64,000 bases of DNA, taken from Victivallis lenta. GTDB lineage: Bacteria > Verrucomicrobiota > Lentisphaeria > Victivallales > Victivallaceae. A program made the translations under genes and the position numbers. The notes below the pieces were generated by a model, which ran no database searches, had not been told where the DNA came from, and saw only the letters and a program-made list of their open reading frames with translations. Each line of letters starts with the position of its first letter. Within the stretch, counting starts at the first letter, position 1. Shown here one piece after another: positions 7,984-18,141 of the stretch. The stretch is taken from assembly GCF_009695545.1 (NCBI RefSeq), contig NZ_VUNS01000001.1, forward strand, positions 62,001 through 126,000. The letters are read 5' to 3'.

Positions 7984-8230
7984 TCAAGGCTGTTCCGACA
8001 GAAAGCCCGGTTCCAGCAGGGAGCTGAAAATTTCGCCGATATCGTCCCGCGCGGATTCCGGAACTTCGGAGAACTCCCGCCGGAGTATGAAAAAAAACAT
8101 GTTCCCGGTCGGCGCCCGGCGAAGCATTCTCCCATATGATTTCAGCCACGACGTTCATACCGAACGACTTGCCGGTTTCGGCGCTGAAAAGTACCGCACC
8201 TATCTCTTCTTCGTCGCGGTAAACCGTCAT
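7984..8230 (-). pseudogene. PqqD-like (RiPP recognition element) gene, frameshifted at an 8-base homopolymer
   Basis: From the ATG at 8230 the first frame reads a PqqD-type N-terminal half (EEIGAVLFSAETGKSFGMN, then VVAEIIWE). It loses similarity immediately after a run of eight A/T bases at 8090-8097. One base out of frame, the rest of the domain follows: ILRREFSEVPESARDDIGEI, FSSLLEPGFL, then TGA at 7984-7986. Deleting one base of the run restores a continuous domain of about 81 residues. PqqD-family proteins bind RiPP leader peptides and present them to modifying enzymes. The cause could be a true disabling mutation, a sequencing error in the homopolymer, or +1 slippage. The ATG overlaps the stop of the upstream ORF (ATGA), as in an operon. 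Confidence 0.72.
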
Positions 8231-8493
8231 GGGAGCAGCCTGACCGCGTCGACGGCAAAGCCGATCACCGATTCATTGCAGGAGATCAATCCATGCGCCA
8301 TGACGACTTTCACGGCACGAAGCGCTCCCTCGGCAGAAACCGGAGCACCGCCGCCAATTGTCGCGGCCGGGTTCCGCGGCCGGCCGCGACAACTCCTCCC
8401 GAAGCCATATTTTACCGAACCCGGCGAAGAGCGTCCGCCGCTCTTTCGCCGTTTCGCATGCGCGGTTGGAGGCGCCGCTGCTGCTGGAGCAGT
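8227..8493 (-). pseudogene. Unrecognised degraded ORF in the RiPP-like locus
   Basis: In the frame whose TGA (8227-8229) overlaps the PqqD-like ATG, translation is open from 8493 but has no good start codon upstream. The last 35 residues look protein-like (ALRAVKVVMAHGLISC, then NESVIGFAVDAVRLLP), while the upstream part is low-complexity and Arg/Pro-rich. A GTG at about 8310 would give only a 28-residue peptide. I interpret this as the 3' end of a decayed gene translated just before the PqqD-like gene; the family is not recognised. Other frames across 8300-8560 are broken by stops. Confidence 0.3.
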
Positions 8494-8564
8494 TCAAATC
8501 GCAACGCGCAGCCGGTGCCCTTCCGGCAAAATAAGATGTGAAAAAGCGGACGCTTGATTCGAAC

Positions 8565-8738
8565 CTACTCCGGCCCGCCGTCCGAACCGGAGATGCAGGG
8601 GTCCGGCCCCGGATCATCATCCGGGCCTCCGATGCAGCTGTTTCCTTTGACTGCGAACGCCTTCCAGTGTTCAAAATCGATGATTTCCGGTTTTTCATAG
8701 ACCAATTTGGCTTCTGCTTCTCTCATCTTGGCAAACAT
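8565..8738 (-). CDS. Putative RiPP precursor peptide
   Basis: This 57-codon ORF begins 8 bases after the stop of the 1855-residue gene; a perfect AAGGAGGT lies directly after that stop. The ATG at 8738 is very close to the ribosome site and the in-frame ATG at 8726 is 13 bases from it; either may be used. The N-terminal half is leader-like, with the motif LVYEKPEIIDFEHWKAF; KPxI/KPxV leaders of this kind precede cores modified by radical SAM or similar enzymes. The C-terminal half is a small core rich in Gly, Asp and Pro with two Cys (NSCIGGPDDD and PDPCISGSDGG). A PqqD-like leader-binding gene lies downstream on the same strand. The assignment rests on pattern and context; no modifying enzyme is in the window. 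Confidence 0.6.
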   Translation of the reverse strand: MFAKMREAEAKLVYEKPEIIDFEHWKAFAVKGNSCIGGPDDDPGPDPCISGSDGGPE

Positions 8739-8746
8739 TACCTCCT

Positions 8747-11700
8747 TTACACTATTTTACTCACACCCAGCGTATTGTCGCCGACAATGCCGAACTGCCA
8801 CTTGCGGTCCGAGTCGACCCAGGCGTTGAGATCGGAGTCCCATGCGCCTGTCGTGCCGTTGAAGAACACGGTATTGCTCAGGTTATTCCAGCCGTTGATG
8901 ACGTTTGCGCTTCCGCCGGCGATCACCGTCGCCGACCTGAAGCCGTCCGTGTTGAAGTTGAGATTGAATGTGTCGCCGGCAAAACCGCCGTTTCCGGAAT
9001 CCCAGGTCAATGCCGTCCGGCCGTCGGCCAGTCCGAAATTCCATTCCGCGACACCGCTCAGATAACCGCCATGGTTGCTCGACAGATGCACTGCGCTGTC
9101 GGCGGAAACGGTCACCGTGTCGAAATAGGCGAGAGTGGCGGTGATGGTCCCTGTGAAACCGGTCAGATTCAAAGTCCGGGTTCCGCCTACGCCGCCGCCC
9201 TGGTTGGAAGGAGCGCCGCCGACCACAAACGCGCCGGTACTGAAGACAAGATTCGAACCGAGACCGGTAATTGTGATCGAGGCGTCTCCGGTGACTGTCG
9301 CATTATTCGAGCCGCCGGCATAGACGGAGTTTGTGGTAATCACGTTGGCGCCGCTGCAATTCAGCGTGATGCCGGTGCTGCCGTTCACAATCGAGACCCC
9401 GCTTCCGGTGGTGATGCCGCCGCCGAAGATGTGCCCGAAGGTCCCCCCGTTGATTACAATCTCCGTGTCGCCATAGACATAGGAAGCCCCGCCATCCGCC
9501 GCATGCCCGCCGCCGTAAAGCTTGCCGGAGACGCTGCCGCCGTTGATGGTAATCGAAGTCCCCCCGTAGACGGTTGTACTGCCGGTTCCGAAAGCTGCGC
9601 CGCCGCCGGCGACCGTCAGGACGGATGTCGTGCCGTCGATGGTGACAACCGCGCCCTTTTCGCTCATGCCGGAATTGCCGACAATGACGGTGCCGTTCGA
9701 CTGGCTCCGGCCTCCGCCATAGATGCCGATATCGCCGCGGGTGTAATTGGTCAGCCTGATCGCAGCGCCGCCGATGAGCGTGGACGTGCTGTCGGCTCCG
9801 GCATAACCGCCGCCGTAGATATAATTGAGCTGTGCATTGCCGCCGTTCACGGAGATATCGGTTCTTCCCGTATTGACAGCCGTCCCGCCGAGCGCATAGC
9901 CGCCGCCGTAGATCATTCCGACTCGGGCCGCGTCGGAAATTGTGATGGCCGCATCGCCGTAGACGGTCGCGCTGCCGCCGCTGACCGCATAACCGCCGCC
10001 GGTGATGCTGCCGAGCCGGCTGCCGCCGCTGACTGTCAACGACACTCCGGCATTGTTCGACGACGTTCCGATTTCGGAGTGCGCCCCCGCACCGGTGGCG
10101 TAGCCGCCGAGCATGGTGAAACCGGAAGTGTCCGTTCCGTTCAAAGTCAATACCGAACCGCCCTCGATGGTGACGACCGCTCCGCTGCCGGAGGCGTAAC
10201 CGCCGGCAAACAGAATGCCGGACAAGGTAACCGCGCCGATCGACAGATAAGCTTTCCCGGTCACCGTGGTGGTTCCGGAGACAGTGCGGTAACCGCCCAT
10301 GTAAATCCGGCCGGAAGCCGCGCCGGAGGCCGCGCCGTTCCGGATCAGGTTGAGCCGGATGTCGCCGTATATCGTGGAGTTTCCGCCGGCGCCGCTGCCG
10401 TTGCGGGTACCGAGAACGATATTGTAGGCGCTGCCGTAGGCCGGGGAGTCGATCGTAACCGTGATCGCGTCTCCGGTTCCGGCCGCGGTATTGACGTCGC
10501 CGGTTCCTCCGGCGTAAATGAACTTGTCCGCGGCGGCGCAGCCGGCGGTGAGCGCGATGCTGATTTTCCCGAACACGTCGCCGCCGCTGCCTCCGCCGTA
10601 GATGTCGCCCTTGAAGTCGGCGTTGATCTCCAGTGCGGTGCTGCCGTAGACGTCGCCGTTTCTGCCGCCGCCGTAAATGTCGCCGTCCACCGTGGTGTTG
10701 AGAACCAGTCTGGCATTGCCCGTCACGTTTCCGCCGTTGCCGCCGGCAAACGCTTCACCGGTGATGTTGCCGCCGGTCAGAGTCAGGGTCGTGTCGCCTT
10801 CGACCAGAGAGTTCTTTCCGCCGCCGTAAACATCGGTCACGGAACCGTTCAGAATGTTGACGACAGCTCCGCCGGAGACCACCGCACCATCCCGGCCGCC
10901 GCCGTAAATGCCGCCGGAAATCCTGGTGCCTGCGTTATCCAGAGTCACCTCGGTTCCCTTCAGGACTGCCGCGCCGCTGCCGTGACCGCCGCCGTAAACG
11001 TCGCCGGTGATTTCACTGTAGTCCAGCGTGACCGCGGCGCTGCCGCCTACGACGCCGTTGAAGCCGCCGCCGTAGATGTTGCCCGTCAGACCGCCCCAGC
11101 TGCCGCTGTTTCCGATCAACACGTCGACAAGCGTATCACCGCTTACGTTGCCGTTCAGCCCGCCGCCGTAAACATTGCCGGTCAACTGAGTCCAGCCCAG
11201 CACGACCGTCGCGCCGCCGGTGACATCGGCCGTGTTGCCGCCGCCGTAGATGTCGAAGCCCGGCGCGCCGCCGTCCACCTCGACCCGTGCATCGCCGACA
11301 ACCTCGGCTCCGTCGCAGCCGCCGCCGAAAACCGCGCCGGTGATGTTGTCGCTCTGCTTGATCACGACCTGCGTTCCGCCTGTAACGGCGGCGGCCGTGC
11401 CGCTGCCGCCGCCGTAGACATCGGCCGCGCCGCCGCCGCTGATGTTGACGACGGCTCCACTTGCAACGCTCGCGTCTCTGCCGCCGCCGAAGACGTCTCC
11501 GTGAACGGTCGCGCCGGTCAGGGTCACCTTCGTGCCGCCGCCTATGCCGCCTGAACTGCCGCCGCCGTAAACGCTGCCGGAGACAACAGCTCCGCTGCCA
11601 AGCGCAACCGTCGCGCCGCCGGTCACGGCGGCCGTTCCGCCTCCTCCGTAGACACTGCCGGTCACCACCCCCGCATTGACGCCGACGGCCGTTGTTCCAT

Positions 11701-14314
11701 TGACGGTAGCGCCGGTTCCGGTTCCGCCGCCGTAGACATCGCCGCCGACGCTGCCGCCGCCGATGGTGACGACGGCTCCGCCCGTGACGGACGCGCCGAC
11801 GCCGCCGCCGTAAACATTGCCGGTCACGCGTCCCGCGGCAACGGTGACGGCCGTTCCGCCGGTGACCGCGCCGCCTTCGCCGCCGCCGTAGACATTGGCT
11901 GCGGTGCCGTTCCTGATATTGACGACAGTGCCGTTCTGAACCGCCGCGCCGTTCCGGCCGCCGCCGTAAATGCCGCCGGAAACAACAGCTCCGGCATTAT
12001 CCAGATTGATCAGAGTCCCGCCGGCGACCACCGAGGCGCTGCCGGTTCCGCCGCCGTAAATATTGCCCTCGATATTACCGTAATCCAGAAAAATCTCGGC
12101 CTTTCCGCCGACTCTTCCGTTGCTGCCGCCGCCGTGGACATCGCCCGTCAAACCGCCCCAGGCGTCATTTCCGGCGTTTATTCTGACATAAGTGCCGCTG
12201 GACACATTGCCGTTTTTGCCGCCGCCGTAGACATTGCCGGTCAGCTTGCTCGCATCCACCAGCACATTCGTGCTTCCGCCCACATCAGACGCATCGCCTC
12301 CGCCGTAAACGTCATATTTCGGCGCACTGCCGGTCACGGTGACCTTGGTATCGCCCGTAACGGTCGCGCCGTTTTTGCCGCCGCCGTAAACCGTGCCGCT
12401 GCTTAAAGAGCGGGAAAGCGTGACTTCCGTGCCGGCAACGGTCGCACCGGTTCCGTTGCCGCCGCCGTAAATCGCGGCGGAAAACCCGCCGGCGGCATCC
12501 AGCAGAACGGTCGCCTTGCCGCCGACCTTCCCGCTGCTGCCGCCGCCGAACAGCTGCCAGCCGGCAGCGGCAATCGTGCTTTGCTTGAGATGAAGCAACG
12601 TGCCGCCCTGCACATCGGCATTGTCGCCGCCCGCGTAAATCGTGCCGGAAAAATTCATCTGCCCTTCGACCAGTTCGACGGTCGTGCCGCCGTTCACCTT
12701 CGCGCCGTCTTTGCCGCCGCCGTAAATCGCGCCGGAGAATGACCGGTCTCCGCTCAACGTCACCAGGGTATTTCCCGCGACCGTGCCGCCGGCGCCTCTG
12801 CCGCCGCCGTAAACCGCCGCATTGTCAATATTCACCGTGACGGAAACGGAAGTGTTCTGGCCGACGGCACCGCCGTCGCCGCCGCCGTAAATGACCGCAC
12901 CGTTCAGATTGCTGTTCCTCAGCACCAGATAGGTGCTGCCGCCGACATTCGCGTTCCGGCCTCCGCCGAAAATCGAACCGGTCACGGTGGCGCTCCAGAC
13001 GATGACGAGCGTATTCTTATCGACTGCGGCACCGTTGTCGCCGCCGCCGTAAATATACTGGTAGGTGCCGGTCCCCAGGCTCATAAAAGTTCCGGCCTGA
13101 TAGGTGATTCCATTGTCCGTATAGGAGGCCTCTCCGTACACGGCCGCTCCGGCGCCTTTGCCGCCGCCGAAGAGATTGCCCACGGAAAGAGTGCCGCCTT
13201 CGGGCGATCCGTAGAAGTGGGTATGGCCGACGCGGGAGGAGCCGGAAGTTCCGTCGCCGCCGCCGTAGACATTCGCATAATCGCCGCCGGCAAGCGTCAG
13301 CTCGGATCCGGCGATATGGGAGCCGCTCCTGCCGCCGCCGTAAAGAGTGCCGATCGTGCCGCTGTCGCCTTTGTAAGCGGATTTCTCGGTGCCGGTGCCG
13401 CCGTTCCCGGCGTAAATCGTTTCGATCCCGGTCACTACGCTGCCATCCAGCTTGCCGACGAAAAGCTTGGTTTCAGTGCTGCCGACCGTCAGCGTGACGG
13501 TGCGGATGGCCGCATCCCAGATATAGATGCCGTCAGACACATTTGAAAAGACGAACTCCATATCCGCCGCCTTGACCCCCCACTCGCTCCCGACCCGCGT
13601 CGTGCCGACTTCGACCATCCTGTAACCGGGAATCACGAACGTGGAACCGCTGACCGAGGCGTTCATGGTTGCAACCATGAAACTGAGCACATTGCTGCTG
13701 TAATCGCCCTCGGCAAAGGTCAGGCGGTACACTCCCCATTCGAGAAGCGCATAAACATACTTATCGGCGCCGGGAGAGGCAGTATCGTCATTTACGCCTG
13801 CATCGGCATAGTCGTAGATGGTACCGTTTCCGGTTTCATGGCTTTCGCCGAGAAGGTGGCCGGCCTCATGCGCGACAACCGAAACGACCTCGTCGATTCC
13901 GCCGCGGATATGGTTGATCAGCACAAAGGCGTTGTCGTCGTCGATCCGGTTGCCGACATCGATGGTCTCCGAGATGCCGCGAAAAAGTCCGTACGAGTCG
14001 AAAGCATCGGTGGAGCCGACATAAATGGTGGAGTAACTGCCGGCATCTTCCGGAAGTTCGGCCGTAAAGACGATACTCCCGTCCGCAAAAAGTTCGTTCA
14101 ACGCGGCGACGACATACGCCTGCTCCTCTCCGGAAAAAGAGGCGGCGTGCAAGGTAATATCGCTCAGCGACACCAGTTCGTTGTCGAATTCCAGATCGGT
14201 GCCGCCGGAAAAGTCGACATAGAAATACTTCTTCTCGTAAGAAGAATTTTCATATGTCGCGCTGTCGCCGATTGCGATATCGCCGAGCCGGTGTCTGGCT
14301 AAAGTAGATTGCAT
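8747..14314 (-). CDS. Giant metzincin-motif protein with YGGG repeats
   Basis: This is a 1855-residue protein. The N-terminal region (1-320) carries HEAGHLLGESH at 149-159, an exact HExxHxxGxxH zinc signature of metzincin proteases. From about 320 to 1560 there are roughly 45 repeats of 20-35 residues, each opening with YGGG, FGGG or YAGG and continuing VxGxTxVxVxxGxVxG; this Gly/Val/Thr pattern suggests a beta-helix or beta-roll stalk. The C-terminal 250 residues are non-repetitive (DSDLNAWVDSDRKWQFGIVG). There is no N-terminal signal peptide and no autotransporter barrel, so export could be by a type I-like route. The start at 14314 lacks a strong ribosome site. Two copies of a promoter-like element lie upstream, and a RiPP-precursor-like ORF follows. 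Confidence 0.8.
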   Translation of the reverse strand: MQSTLARHRLGDIAIGDSATYENSSYEKKYFYVDFSGGTDLEFDNELVSLSDITLHAASFSGEEQAYVVAALNELFADGSIVFTAELPEDAGSYSTIYVGSTDAFDSYGLFRGISETIDVGNRIDDDNAFVLINHIRGGIDEVVSVVAHEAGHLLGESHETGNGTIYDYADAGVNDDTASPGADKYVYALLEWGVYRLTFAEGDYSSNVLSFMVATMNASVSGSTFVIPGYRMVEVGTTRVGSEWGVKAADMEFVFSNVSDGIYIWDAAIRTVTLTVGSTETKLFVGKLDGSVVTGIETIYAGNGGTGTEKSAYKGDSGTIGTLYGGGRSGSHIAGSELTLAGGDYANVYGGGDGTSGSSRVGHTHFYGSPEGGTLSVGNLFGGGKGAGAAVYGEASYTDNGITYQAGTFMSLGTGTYQYIYGGGDNGAAVDKNTLVIVWSATVTGSIFGGGRNANVGGSTYLVLRNSNLNGAVIYGGGDGGAVGQNTSVSVTVNIDNAAVYGGGRGAGGTVAGNTLVTLSGDRSFSGAIYGGGKDGAKVNGGTTVELVEGQMNFSGTIYAGGDNADVQGGTLLHLKQSTIAAAGWQLFGGGSSGKVGGKATVLLDAAGGFSAAIYGGGNGTGATVAGTEVTLSRSLSSGTVYGGGKNGATVTGDTKVTVTGSAPKYDVYGGGDASDVGGSTNVLVDASKLTGNVYGGGKNGNVSSGTYVRINAGNDAWGGLTGDVHGGGSNGRVGGKAEIFLDYGNIEGNIYGGGTGSASVVAGGTLINLDNAGAVVSGGIYGGGRNGAAVQNGTVVNIRNGTAANVYGGGEGGAVTGGTAVTVAAGRVTGNVYGGGVGASVTGGAVVTIGGGSVGGDVYGGGTGTGATVNGTTAVGVNAGVVTGSVYGGGGTAAVTGGATVALGSGAVVSGSVYGGGSSGGIGGGTKVTLTGATVHGDVFGGGRDASVASGAVVNISGGGAADVYGGGSGTAAAVTGGTQVVIKQSDNITGAVFGGGCDGAEVVGDARVEVDGGAPGFDIYGGGNTADVTGGATVVLGWTQLTGNVYGGGLNGNVSGDTLVDVLIGNSGSWGGLTGNIYGGGFNGVVGGSAAVTLDYSEITGDVYGGGHGSGAAVLKGTEVTLDNAGTRISGGIYGGGRDGAVVSGGAVVNILNGSVTDVYGGGKNSLVEGDTTLTLTGGNITGEAFAGGNGGNVTGNARLVLNTTVDGDIYGGGRNGDVYGSTALEINADFKGDIYGGGSGGDVFGKISIALTAGCAAADKFIYAGGTGDVNTAAGTGDAITVTIDSPAYGSAYNIVLGTRNGSGAGGNSTIYGDIRLNLIRNGAASGAASGRIYMGGYRTVSGTTTVTGKAYLSIGAVTLSGILFAGGYASGSGAVVTIEGGSVLTLNGTDTSGFTMLGGYATGAGAHSEIGTSSNNAGVSLTVSGGSRLGSITGGGYAVSGGSATVYGDAAITISDAARVGMIYGGGYALGGTAVNTGRTDISVNGGNAQLNYIYGGGYAGADSTSTLIGGAAIRLTNYTRGDIGIYGGGRSQSNGTVIVGNSGMSEKGAVVTIDGTTSVLTVAGGGAAFGTGSTTVYGGTSITINGGSVSGKLYGGGHAADGGASYVYGDTEIVINGGTFGHIFGGGITTGSGVSIVNGSTGITLNCSGANVITTNSVYAGGSNNATVTGDASITITGLGSNLVFSTGAFVVGGAPSNQGGGVGGTRTLNLTGFTGTITATLAYFDTVTVSADSAVHLSSNHGGYLSGVAEWNFGLADGRTALTWDSGNGGFAGDTFNLNFNTDGFRSATVIAGGSANVINGWNNLSNTVFFNGTTGAWDSDLNAWVDSDRKWQFGIVGDNTLGVSKIV
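9440..13370 (-). repeat. Tandem YGGG-coding repeat array
   Basis: This DNA segment inside the giant gene has a GCCGCCGCCGTA-type unit recurring every 60-100 bases, encoding (V/I)YGGG. Within it a higher-order duplication is visible: about 10,805-11,260 and about 11,875-12,325 encode the same order of units, including WGGLTG, LDY, LDNAG and ISGGIYGGGR or VSGGIYGGGR. Units differ enough that this is an old array, not a recent slippage expansion. Confidence 0.85.
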
Positions 14315-17073: not shown

Positions 17074-17793
17074 TTAATTCACCAGTTTCTTCACGCTTCC
17101 CGCCTCGTCATACACCTCTTTGAACTGCATCGGAGAAGCCTGAAGTTCAGCATCGGAGCGGGCAGCCACATGGCCGTCGGGATATCCGGCCACCGCCCTG
17201 TTGCGGTGGAGAAGCCCGGCGGCACCTTTCCAGTCCGGAAGAATCTGCGCCGGAGAGAACGCATAAATCATCTTGTTCGATCCCATCACCCCGCAGGAGG
17301 TGTCGATCATGATCTCCGTCCGGGAAGGCAATTTCATTCGGTGCAGGCTCATCACCCGGATCTCCGTCGTGACGCCGGGATGGGAGAAAGCCGAAATCTC
17401 GAGATAAAAATCTCCCAGCACGGCTTTCTTGGTCGCGTAATCAGGATCATACCAGCCATCCTGTATCCGGTACACACCGTACGTCATAGTCGGCCATCCC
17501 CAGTCCGCAGAGGAAGGGAAGGAAGCCGGGCAGGTGAGTACATTTTTTCCGATATACCCCTGGTTGACAAGCACTTCCCCCCAGAACTCCACACTCTGGC
17601 TCACAATGAAGTTGTTGTTGTCGTCCGCATACAGCAGTTGAGCAGTCATGCACTGTTTCTGATTATTGATGCACTGGGAGGTTTTTGCCTTCGCACGCGC
17701 CATATTCAGCGCCGGCAGCAGCATCGAGGCGAGAATCGCGATGATCGCAATAACAACCAGCAACTCGATCAAAGTGAACTTTTTTCTCCGCAT
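17074..17793 (-). CDS. Type II pseudopilin-like protein with C-terminal DGH motif
   Basis: This 239-residue protein begins [20 protein letters not shown], the prepilin peptidase site and hydrophobic helix of type IV pilin / type II secretion pseudopilins (cleavage before Phe, Glu at +5). A globular domain with paired Cys follows, and near the end comes [17 protein letters not shown], the H...DGH motif shared by the other three pilin-like genes here. The start at 17793 is chosen because the prepilin signal begins there, with GGACGGAG upstream. It is directly upstream of, and co-directional with, the secreted beta-helix glycosidase. Confidence 0.9.
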
Positions 17794-18141
17794 AATTGCA
17801 CTCCGTCCTATAATAGTTAATAAGTGATGCGGAAAATAACGGAGAATGAATTGCGCGCGACAGTCCCGGCCAAAAGCGCGGCAGGAGAGCTGCTGCACGA
17901 TGACGAACCCGTTGCGTGAGCATAGAAAACGGAGGACGGGAAATGAATTCTCCCTGCGATTCCCCGAACAAAACATACAGGCGCCGCAGACGGAATGCAA
18001 TCGAAACGGTGCAGCCGCAGAAGGCTGAAAAAAACGGGAGAGCAGCAAGCCGTATCTGGGCGATAACCGGATGAACAGAAATAAATCAGGAAAAATGACA
18101 TCAGGTGTCATTTACATAACATACTAACTATTATAAGACTT
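17794..18141. other. Intergenic region upstream of pseudopilin
   Basis: This 348-base region contains a near-repeat in inverted orientation: TATAATAGTTAATAAGTGATG on the plus strand at 17809-17829 and TATAATAGTTAGTATGTTATG on the minus strand at 18135-18115 (18 or so of 21 bases match). It also holds the AAATGACA/TGTCATTT hairpin at 18093-18113. No ORF inside has family similarity. Confidence 0.45.
18093..18113 (-). terminator. Possible terminator or operator hairpin (AAATGACA / TGTCATTT)
   Basis: This is an exact 8-bp inverted repeat with loop CCTGA on the minus strand, ending in a short T-run. It follows the stop of the 57-residue ORF by 28 bases, so it may terminate that transcript; the stem is AT-rich, so an operator for the pseudopilin gene is also possible. 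Confidence 0.4.

Follow-up and report, generated by a model that had tools for sequence, protein, structure and literature searches.

A short gene behind a giant repeat-protein gene in Victivallis lenta is predicted to encode a RiPP precursor that belongs to an RRE-dependent pathway of the Victivallaceae

The stretch of Victivallis lenta DNA that was analysed (64,000 nucleotides, hereafter the window) is part of contig C1 of a 5.5 Mb genome in 78 contigs and carries a short gene directly behind the gene of a giant repeat protein. Judged from sequence, this short gene very probably encodes the precursor (A) peptide of a RiPP pathway of the Victivallaceae that depends on a RiPP recognition element (RRE). 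The original prediction had proposed a RiPP precursor at this place, and the proposal is supported by a conserved paralogue in the same genome, by an intact cassette with maturation genes and by a leader that is conserved while the core varies. The fuller explanation, in which the peptide would be modified, exported and put to work together with its giant neighbour, is likely as a whole, with its parts graded separately below. The components are known; what appears to be new is that RiPP machinery is linked with type I secretion and with giant proteins that are exported. The features of the locus are as follows.

8747..14314, minus strand: giant protein of 1,855 residues, with an N-terminal metzincin-motif domain, about 30 YGGG repeats and a C-terminal region common to other peptide-paired giants.
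13838..13870, minus strand: zinc-metalloprotease (metzincin-type) motif HEAGHLLGESH, a single HExxHxxGxxH at residue 149 of the giant.
8740..8747, minus strand: Shine-Dalgarno sequence AAGGAGGT, overlapping the stop codon of the giant.
8565..8738, minus strand (8738→8565): predicted RiPP precursor peptide ORF, ATG start, exactly 57 codons, backed by the paralogue, the homologues and the substitution pattern.
8682..8699, minus strand: leader motif YEKPEI (YxxP-phi), the proposed RRE-binding element, with Tyr and Pro invariant in the peptide alignment.
8637..8645, minus strand: Gly-Asn-Ser at the leader/core junction, the Gly invariant and a Ser/Thr usual shortly after it.
8595..8636, minus strand: core with Cys35 and Cys48, Cys being restricted to genomes with an ScmE-like radical SAM protein.
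8351..8533, minus strand: putative radical SAM remnant of 183 bp, aligning to residues 8-84 of the radical SAM protein of contig C3 (33% identity), with no CxxxCxxC.
7987..8230, minus strand: PqqD/RRE gene (ScmD-like), frameshifted at the T8 run 8090-8097, with an identity to the PqqD of contig C3 of 53% in one frame and 51% in the other.

The giant lies upstream of the peptide ORF on the same strand, and 8 nt separate its stop from the ORF. Both genes are where they had been predicted; the strand, which the prediction did not give, is minus. The ORF translates to MFAKMREAEAKLVYEKPEIIDFEHWKAFAVKGNSCIGGPDDDPGPDPCISGSDGGPE* (57 aa) and has the Gly/Asp/Pro-rich end and the two Cys ascribed to it. 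The perfect ribosome-binding site said to lie between the giant's stop and the ATG is present (8747-8740), but its description has to be corrected: it overlaps the stop, and it stands 2 nt from the first ATG, which is too close, and 14 nt from a second in-frame ATG (codon 5, 8726), which is rather far. Since the alignment with the paralogue on contig C3 begins at codon 5 of the window peptide, the true product may be a peptide of 53 aa that starts there (8726). Neither the peptide nor the window giant matches any Pfam or NCBIfam model. A chance origin could be argued from the shortness of the ORF and from its place in GC-rich DNA, where ORFs overlap in large numbers. Between the window peptide and the C3 peptide, however, 29.2 of 32 synonymous sites are changed (pS 0.91) versus 30.8 of 124 nonsynonymous ones (pN 0.25), so the conservation that had been named as a check on the prediction is found at nonsynonymous and not at synonymous sites. 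The ORF is a genuine gene with a coding-type substitution pattern, under purifying selection. Together with the 57% identity of a paralogue that is conserved in an intact cassette, and with some 42 homologues in the family, this pattern refutes the reading as a chance ORF, to which we give practically no probability.

The search of the same genome with the peptide returned the C3 paralogue (57% identical, E 7e-16), which stands in an intact cassette, also on the minus strand, made up of a 1923-aa giant, the peptide, a radical SAM/SPASM protein, an HprK-like protein and a PqqD. The C3 giant shares the metzincin and YGGG architecture of the window giant. The three proteins encoded directly downstream of the C3 peptide are the kind of RiPP maturation genes whose existence the prediction depended on, and all of them resemble the SynChlorMet (Scm) families: the radical SAM/SPASM protein matches TIGR04250 (ScmE, 1.3e-79, 267.8 bits versus a cut-off of 400) along with PF04055 and PF13186, the HprK-like protein matches TIGR04249 (ScmC, 8e-30, 104.1 bits versus 125) and the PqqD matches TIGR04248 (ScmD, 4e-13, 49.5 bits versus 100) and PF05402 (7.8e-12). 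The best PDB profile matches of the HprK-like kinase are HPr kinases (1.6e-7), and its HG, GKST and DD motifs are invariant. Two further cassettes, on contigs C4 and C15, contain giant, peptide, radical SAM and ScmC, and no PqqD was found adjoining the C15 cassette; the Scm-family scores lie under the NCBIfam equivalog cut-offs, as compared for the C3 proteins. The combination of a SPASM radical SAM protein with a Cys-containing core, which is the trait of sactipeptides and ranthipeptides, is found in the intact paralogous cassettes. A fifth peptide, on contig C33, has no Cys. A giant of 2634 aa precedes it at a distance of 21 nt, and HprK-like, PqqD and S26 genes come after it; there, no peptide-maturase radical SAM gene was found beside the peptide, and a weak radical SAM match lies on the opposite strand about 3 kb away. 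S26 members occur on C24 and C33, with none beside the window peptide, and contig C21 carries PqqD, HlyB and HlyD. S26 and type I genes do not adjoin the C3, C4 and C15 cassettes, which speaks against the fuller explanation, and are located elsewhere in the genome (C21, C24, C33). The PqqD and S26 pair on C24 (L014:6912-9943) is near transposase-like genes and is likely another cassette fragment.

A profile built from 22 peptides was run on 78 genomes of the family Victivallaceae and on a sample of 388 genomes of the phylum (E<0.001). It matched 18 of the 78 family genomes, 16 of them convincingly and with about 42 peptides among them; the weak matches in two genomes (G023 and G071) were excluded from the counts. 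In the phylum sample, every match at this threshold fell within the Victivallaceae. Looking for the peptide by itself as a DNA pattern in named genomes returned nothing. PqqD genes are present in all 16 peptide-bearing genomes versus 13 of the 62 others (p 4e-9, a value that ignores shared ancestry). The relatives also show how the genes are arranged: four loci (L085, L086, L087, L090) have an operon HlyB-HlyD-RRE-S26-rSAM-HprK, and two (L247, L249) hold HprK-RRE-MsbA-S26-HlyB-HlyD in one operon. The HlyB/HlyD family genes linked to the RRE include a C39-like domain, the S26 protein of L090 belongs with the archaeal-type, SipW-like signal peptidases (TIGR02228, 2e-12), and MsbA-like ABC proteins were found in L096 (TIGR02203, 7e-78) as well as in L247, L249 and L256. 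Genome G007 has a second radical SAM gene, which is split across two frames (L101:4409-5342) and perhaps represents another decaying maturase.

The profile alignment changes what defines the leader and the core. The KPEI leader and the two Cys had been expected to be conserved, and neither is the general element: YxxP-phi is retained in 39 of 41 peptides, with Tyr and Pro invariant while the Lys and the last position of KPxI vary, and the leader is closed by a Gly, usually with a Ser/Thr at about +2, before cores that are variable. KPxI was accordingly rejected as the defining leader element, and so was the Cys pair, which is absent from genomes without the radical SAM gene. Peptides with Cys occur in 11 of 11 genomes with an ScmE-like radical SAM gene and in none of the five without it (Fisher p 2.3e-4, again ignoring shared ancestry). 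Given that the first profile was made from four Cys-containing peptides, the Cys-free peptides of the latter genomes are not an artefact of the query. One genome with a single radical SAM gene (G067) has Cys-free peptides as well, at loci where no radical SAM gene was detected. In four genomes (G029, G058, G059, G060), the core mostly reads SC[FYN].DC..D.[IVF]C. The YxxP motif is bound by the RRE in the systems of linear polyphosphorylated peptides (LPP) and of lasso peptides (PMC13381572).

The other recurrent feature is the giant. Among the 27 peptides with enough upstream sequence, 16 have an ORF of 500 aa or longer on the same strand no more than 100 nt from their start, versus a background of 9% for comparable ORFs (p 8e-11), and the gaps in the giant-then-peptide order are 5-59 nt across genera. 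Several other peptides lie at the ends of contigs, as repetitive giants next to them would lead one to expect, and about 10 peptides in relatives have no resolvable upstream giant. The N-termini of the giants differ (metzincin, AIDA-like and others), their bodies are repeat-rich with no obvious N-terminal signal peptide, and many end in short hydrophobic tails (KLA, QLA, KIV). The linked genes and the hydrophobic C-termini suggest that the giant may be a type I secretion substrate. The metzincin domain was rejected as the linking feature, since the giants of C4, C15 and C33 do not have it (two of the five peptide-paired giants do), and two more metzincin-type giants, on C6 (L023:5201-10603) and C37 (L024:5479-8775), were not found to be followed by a YxxP peptide. 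In two relatives, leader and core are part of a larger protein: two ORFs bearing exported-type repeats, one of 1138 aa at L224:4400-7816 (minus strand, G060) and one of 512 aa at L225:5671-7209 (minus strand, G029), have the leader and a three-Cys core as their N-terminal part. A third fusion of leader and core to an exoprotein (L226:779-901) is cut off. In one small genome (G057, L233-L237), up to 11 matches correspond to very similar Cys-free peptides of an amplified family, mostly at contig ends beside repetitive giants.

Taken together, we propose the following pathway, in which the steps of leader, RRE, kinase and peptidase are assigned by analogy with LPP (PMC13381572). The discrete PqqD-type RRE would bind the YxxP leader and present it; the HprK-like kinase would phosphorylate the Ser two residues past the conserved Gly at the end of the leader, which makes Ser34 of the window peptide the proposed site, by analogy with core Ser3 of LPP; and the ScmE-like radical SAM/SPASM protein would act on Cys where present, probably forming thioether crosslinks, with Cys35 and Cys48 as its proposed targets. 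We consider this kinase and radical SAM chemistry somewhat better than an even bet. The SipW-like S26 peptidase would then cut off the leader, and the product would leave through one or both of the exporters found in the same operon in relatives, the MsbA-like ABC protein and the type I pair. This machinery would also carry the giant partner, with which the modified peptide would work, probably by being exported along with it and serving as its cap, anchor or decoration. Such a role on the giant, for which we see an even chance, is suggested by the order of the genes, by the operons that they share and by the fusions; the export route is proposed in the same conditional sense.

Free-standing RiPPs, acting as secreted signals or inhibitors and found behind giants through co-transcription and a shared export machine, would be a less probable alternative. 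Core sequences that vary strongly between loci beside a conserved leader are what diversifying secreted peptides show, and five peptides have no nearby giant (L083, L088, L240, L242, L243). The tight and repeated giant-then-peptide order across genera speaks against it, as do the exported repeat proteins that carry leader and core as a fused part, and both suggest a physical partnership; we regard the free-standing reading as rather unlikely. A lasso peptide precursor is far less probable still. Its case lies in the YxxPxL leader and the PqqD-like B1, the PqqD matching the lasso B1 model NF033530 both in the window (3.5e-5, RRE read across the frameshift) and on C3 (4.8e-8). However, a radical SAM gene stands in place of the lasso genes, and the alignment shows no conserved ring-forming Asp/Glu position. 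Neither a cyclase nor the B2 transglutaminase-like protease was seen among the proteins of the intact C3 cassette or the listed ORFs that surround the peptides, and lasso membership was rejected for this reason. The lasso systems with paeninodin-type kinases do share a discrete PqqD-type RRE that binds a YxxP leader and HprK-like tailoring (PMC13381572); the differences here are the cyclase and B2 not being seen, the presence of radical SAM and the linked type I genes.

The locus in the window is itself a damaged cassette. The broken local RRE is shown by sequence: read across the frameshift, the window PqqD matches TIGR04248 (9e-10). The radical SAM remnant is collinear with the C3 gene, which begins 12 nt past its peptide; in the window the corresponding distance would be about 10 nt. 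Its alignment score was reached by none of 300 shuffles and by one of 300 random window segments, and because of the latter it is kept as probable, not proven, the evidence being suggestive only. No trace of ScmC was found behind the peptide. The maturation genes behind the window peptide are thus broken remnants, the locus holds no intact one and the peptide copy could be on its way out. Since the local genes have decayed, processing of the window peptide would be in trans, by the C3, C4 and C15 cassettes, and we consider it somewhat more likely than not that it is still matured in this way. The competing reading, that the window copy is an unprocessed relic whose peptide ORF has so far not decayed after the loss of radical SAM, ScmC and RRE, draws on the frameshifted PqqD, the probable radical SAM remnant and the missing ScmC. 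The pN of the broken PqqD is moreover still low (0.22 and 0.33), which implies that the decay is recent and that an intact peptide proves little on present use. Against it, giant and peptide are both intact, and the T8 frameshift could be an assembly error. Three relatives (G029, G059, G060) as a rule have orphan giant-peptide pairs and a single maturation operon at another place, and with enzyme-less pairs so common, service in trans would be normal. Over the motif, the C3 leader hardly differs from that of the window peptide, which the C3 RRE should therefore bind. We hold the relic reading to be improbable, though by no means negligible. Between the peptide and the broken PqqD lies a near-palindromic, very GC-rich stretch (8360-8400, GGCCGGCCGCGG...CCGGCCGCG).

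LPP and SynChlorMet are the closest known systems, and neither is fully matched. Experiments on LPP (Popov et al. 2026, PMC13381572) have shown that the RRE binds YxxP, that the HprK-like kinase phosphorylates core Ser3 and that the SipW-like peptidase removes the leader. The likeness extends to the discrete RRE, the HprK-like kinase, the SipW-like archaeal-type peptidase, the MsbA-like ABC protein, the YxxP leader and the highly variable cores (PMC13381572). Unlike in LPP, the leader here does not have the rest of YxxPxVLxHQxIxFETxxS (only YxxP, the hydrophobic position and the downstream Ser/Thr agree), a radical SAM gene often comes in addition, there is a link to type I genes and to giant exported proteins, and the hosts are Victivallaceae and not Bacillota. 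No NTP transferase was noticed in a by-eye reading of the neighbouring ORFs listed. The nearest families of the radical SAM, HprK-like and PqqD proteins are ScmE, ScmC and ScmD, and canonical SynChlorMet loci also have precursors with YxxP leaders; however, the cassettes here have no ScmF (one radical SAM gene each on C3, C4 and C15), score under the cut-offs and have a giant in front, and the canonical precursors consist of long Cys repeats, unlike the core here. For SynChlorMet itself, no literature was found. With giant repeat proteins of type I secretion, the giants here share the lack of an obvious N-terminal signal peptide, the repeats and the hydrophobic C-termini, and the RRE is linked with HlyB/HlyD genes that include a C39-like domain; no match combining type I secretion with a RiPP recognition element was found in the literature searched.

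The analysis joins RiPP maturation with the type I secretion of giant surface proteins, two fields that no paper in the searchable literature brought together. It extends the recently described machinery of the LPP type (RRE, HprK-like kinase and SipW-like peptidase) to gut and environmental Victivallaceae, with a radical SAM variant, and the peptides offer clear candidate substrates for ScmE-like enzymes along with a testable idea of their purpose. RiPP precursors could also be recognised by their pairing with a giant gene even where no maturase adjoins. As a generalisation, we suggest tentatively, and at somewhat less than even confidence, that peptides modified by phosphorylation and by radical SAM chemistry may be, instead of free natural products, partners (anchor, cap or decoration) of giant surface proteins secreted by the type I route, either as separate peptides encoded directly behind each giant or as the N-terminal part of the exported protein, with the RRE-guided enzymes physically linked to the exporter.

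Two minor observations were made along the way. Canonical SynChlorMet-type loci (L113:9089-9397, L127:1218-1547, L118:1945-2223, L077:6226-6528, L124:12248-12469 and others) contain a likely precursor with a KYExPxLxPLGExAKGxG leader and long Cys repeats, and the ones tested match no NCBIfam model. In the window, at 17074-18111 on the minus strand, lies a type IV pilin-like N-methylation protein whose ORF carries a 100-residue N-terminal extension, its start being probably internal.
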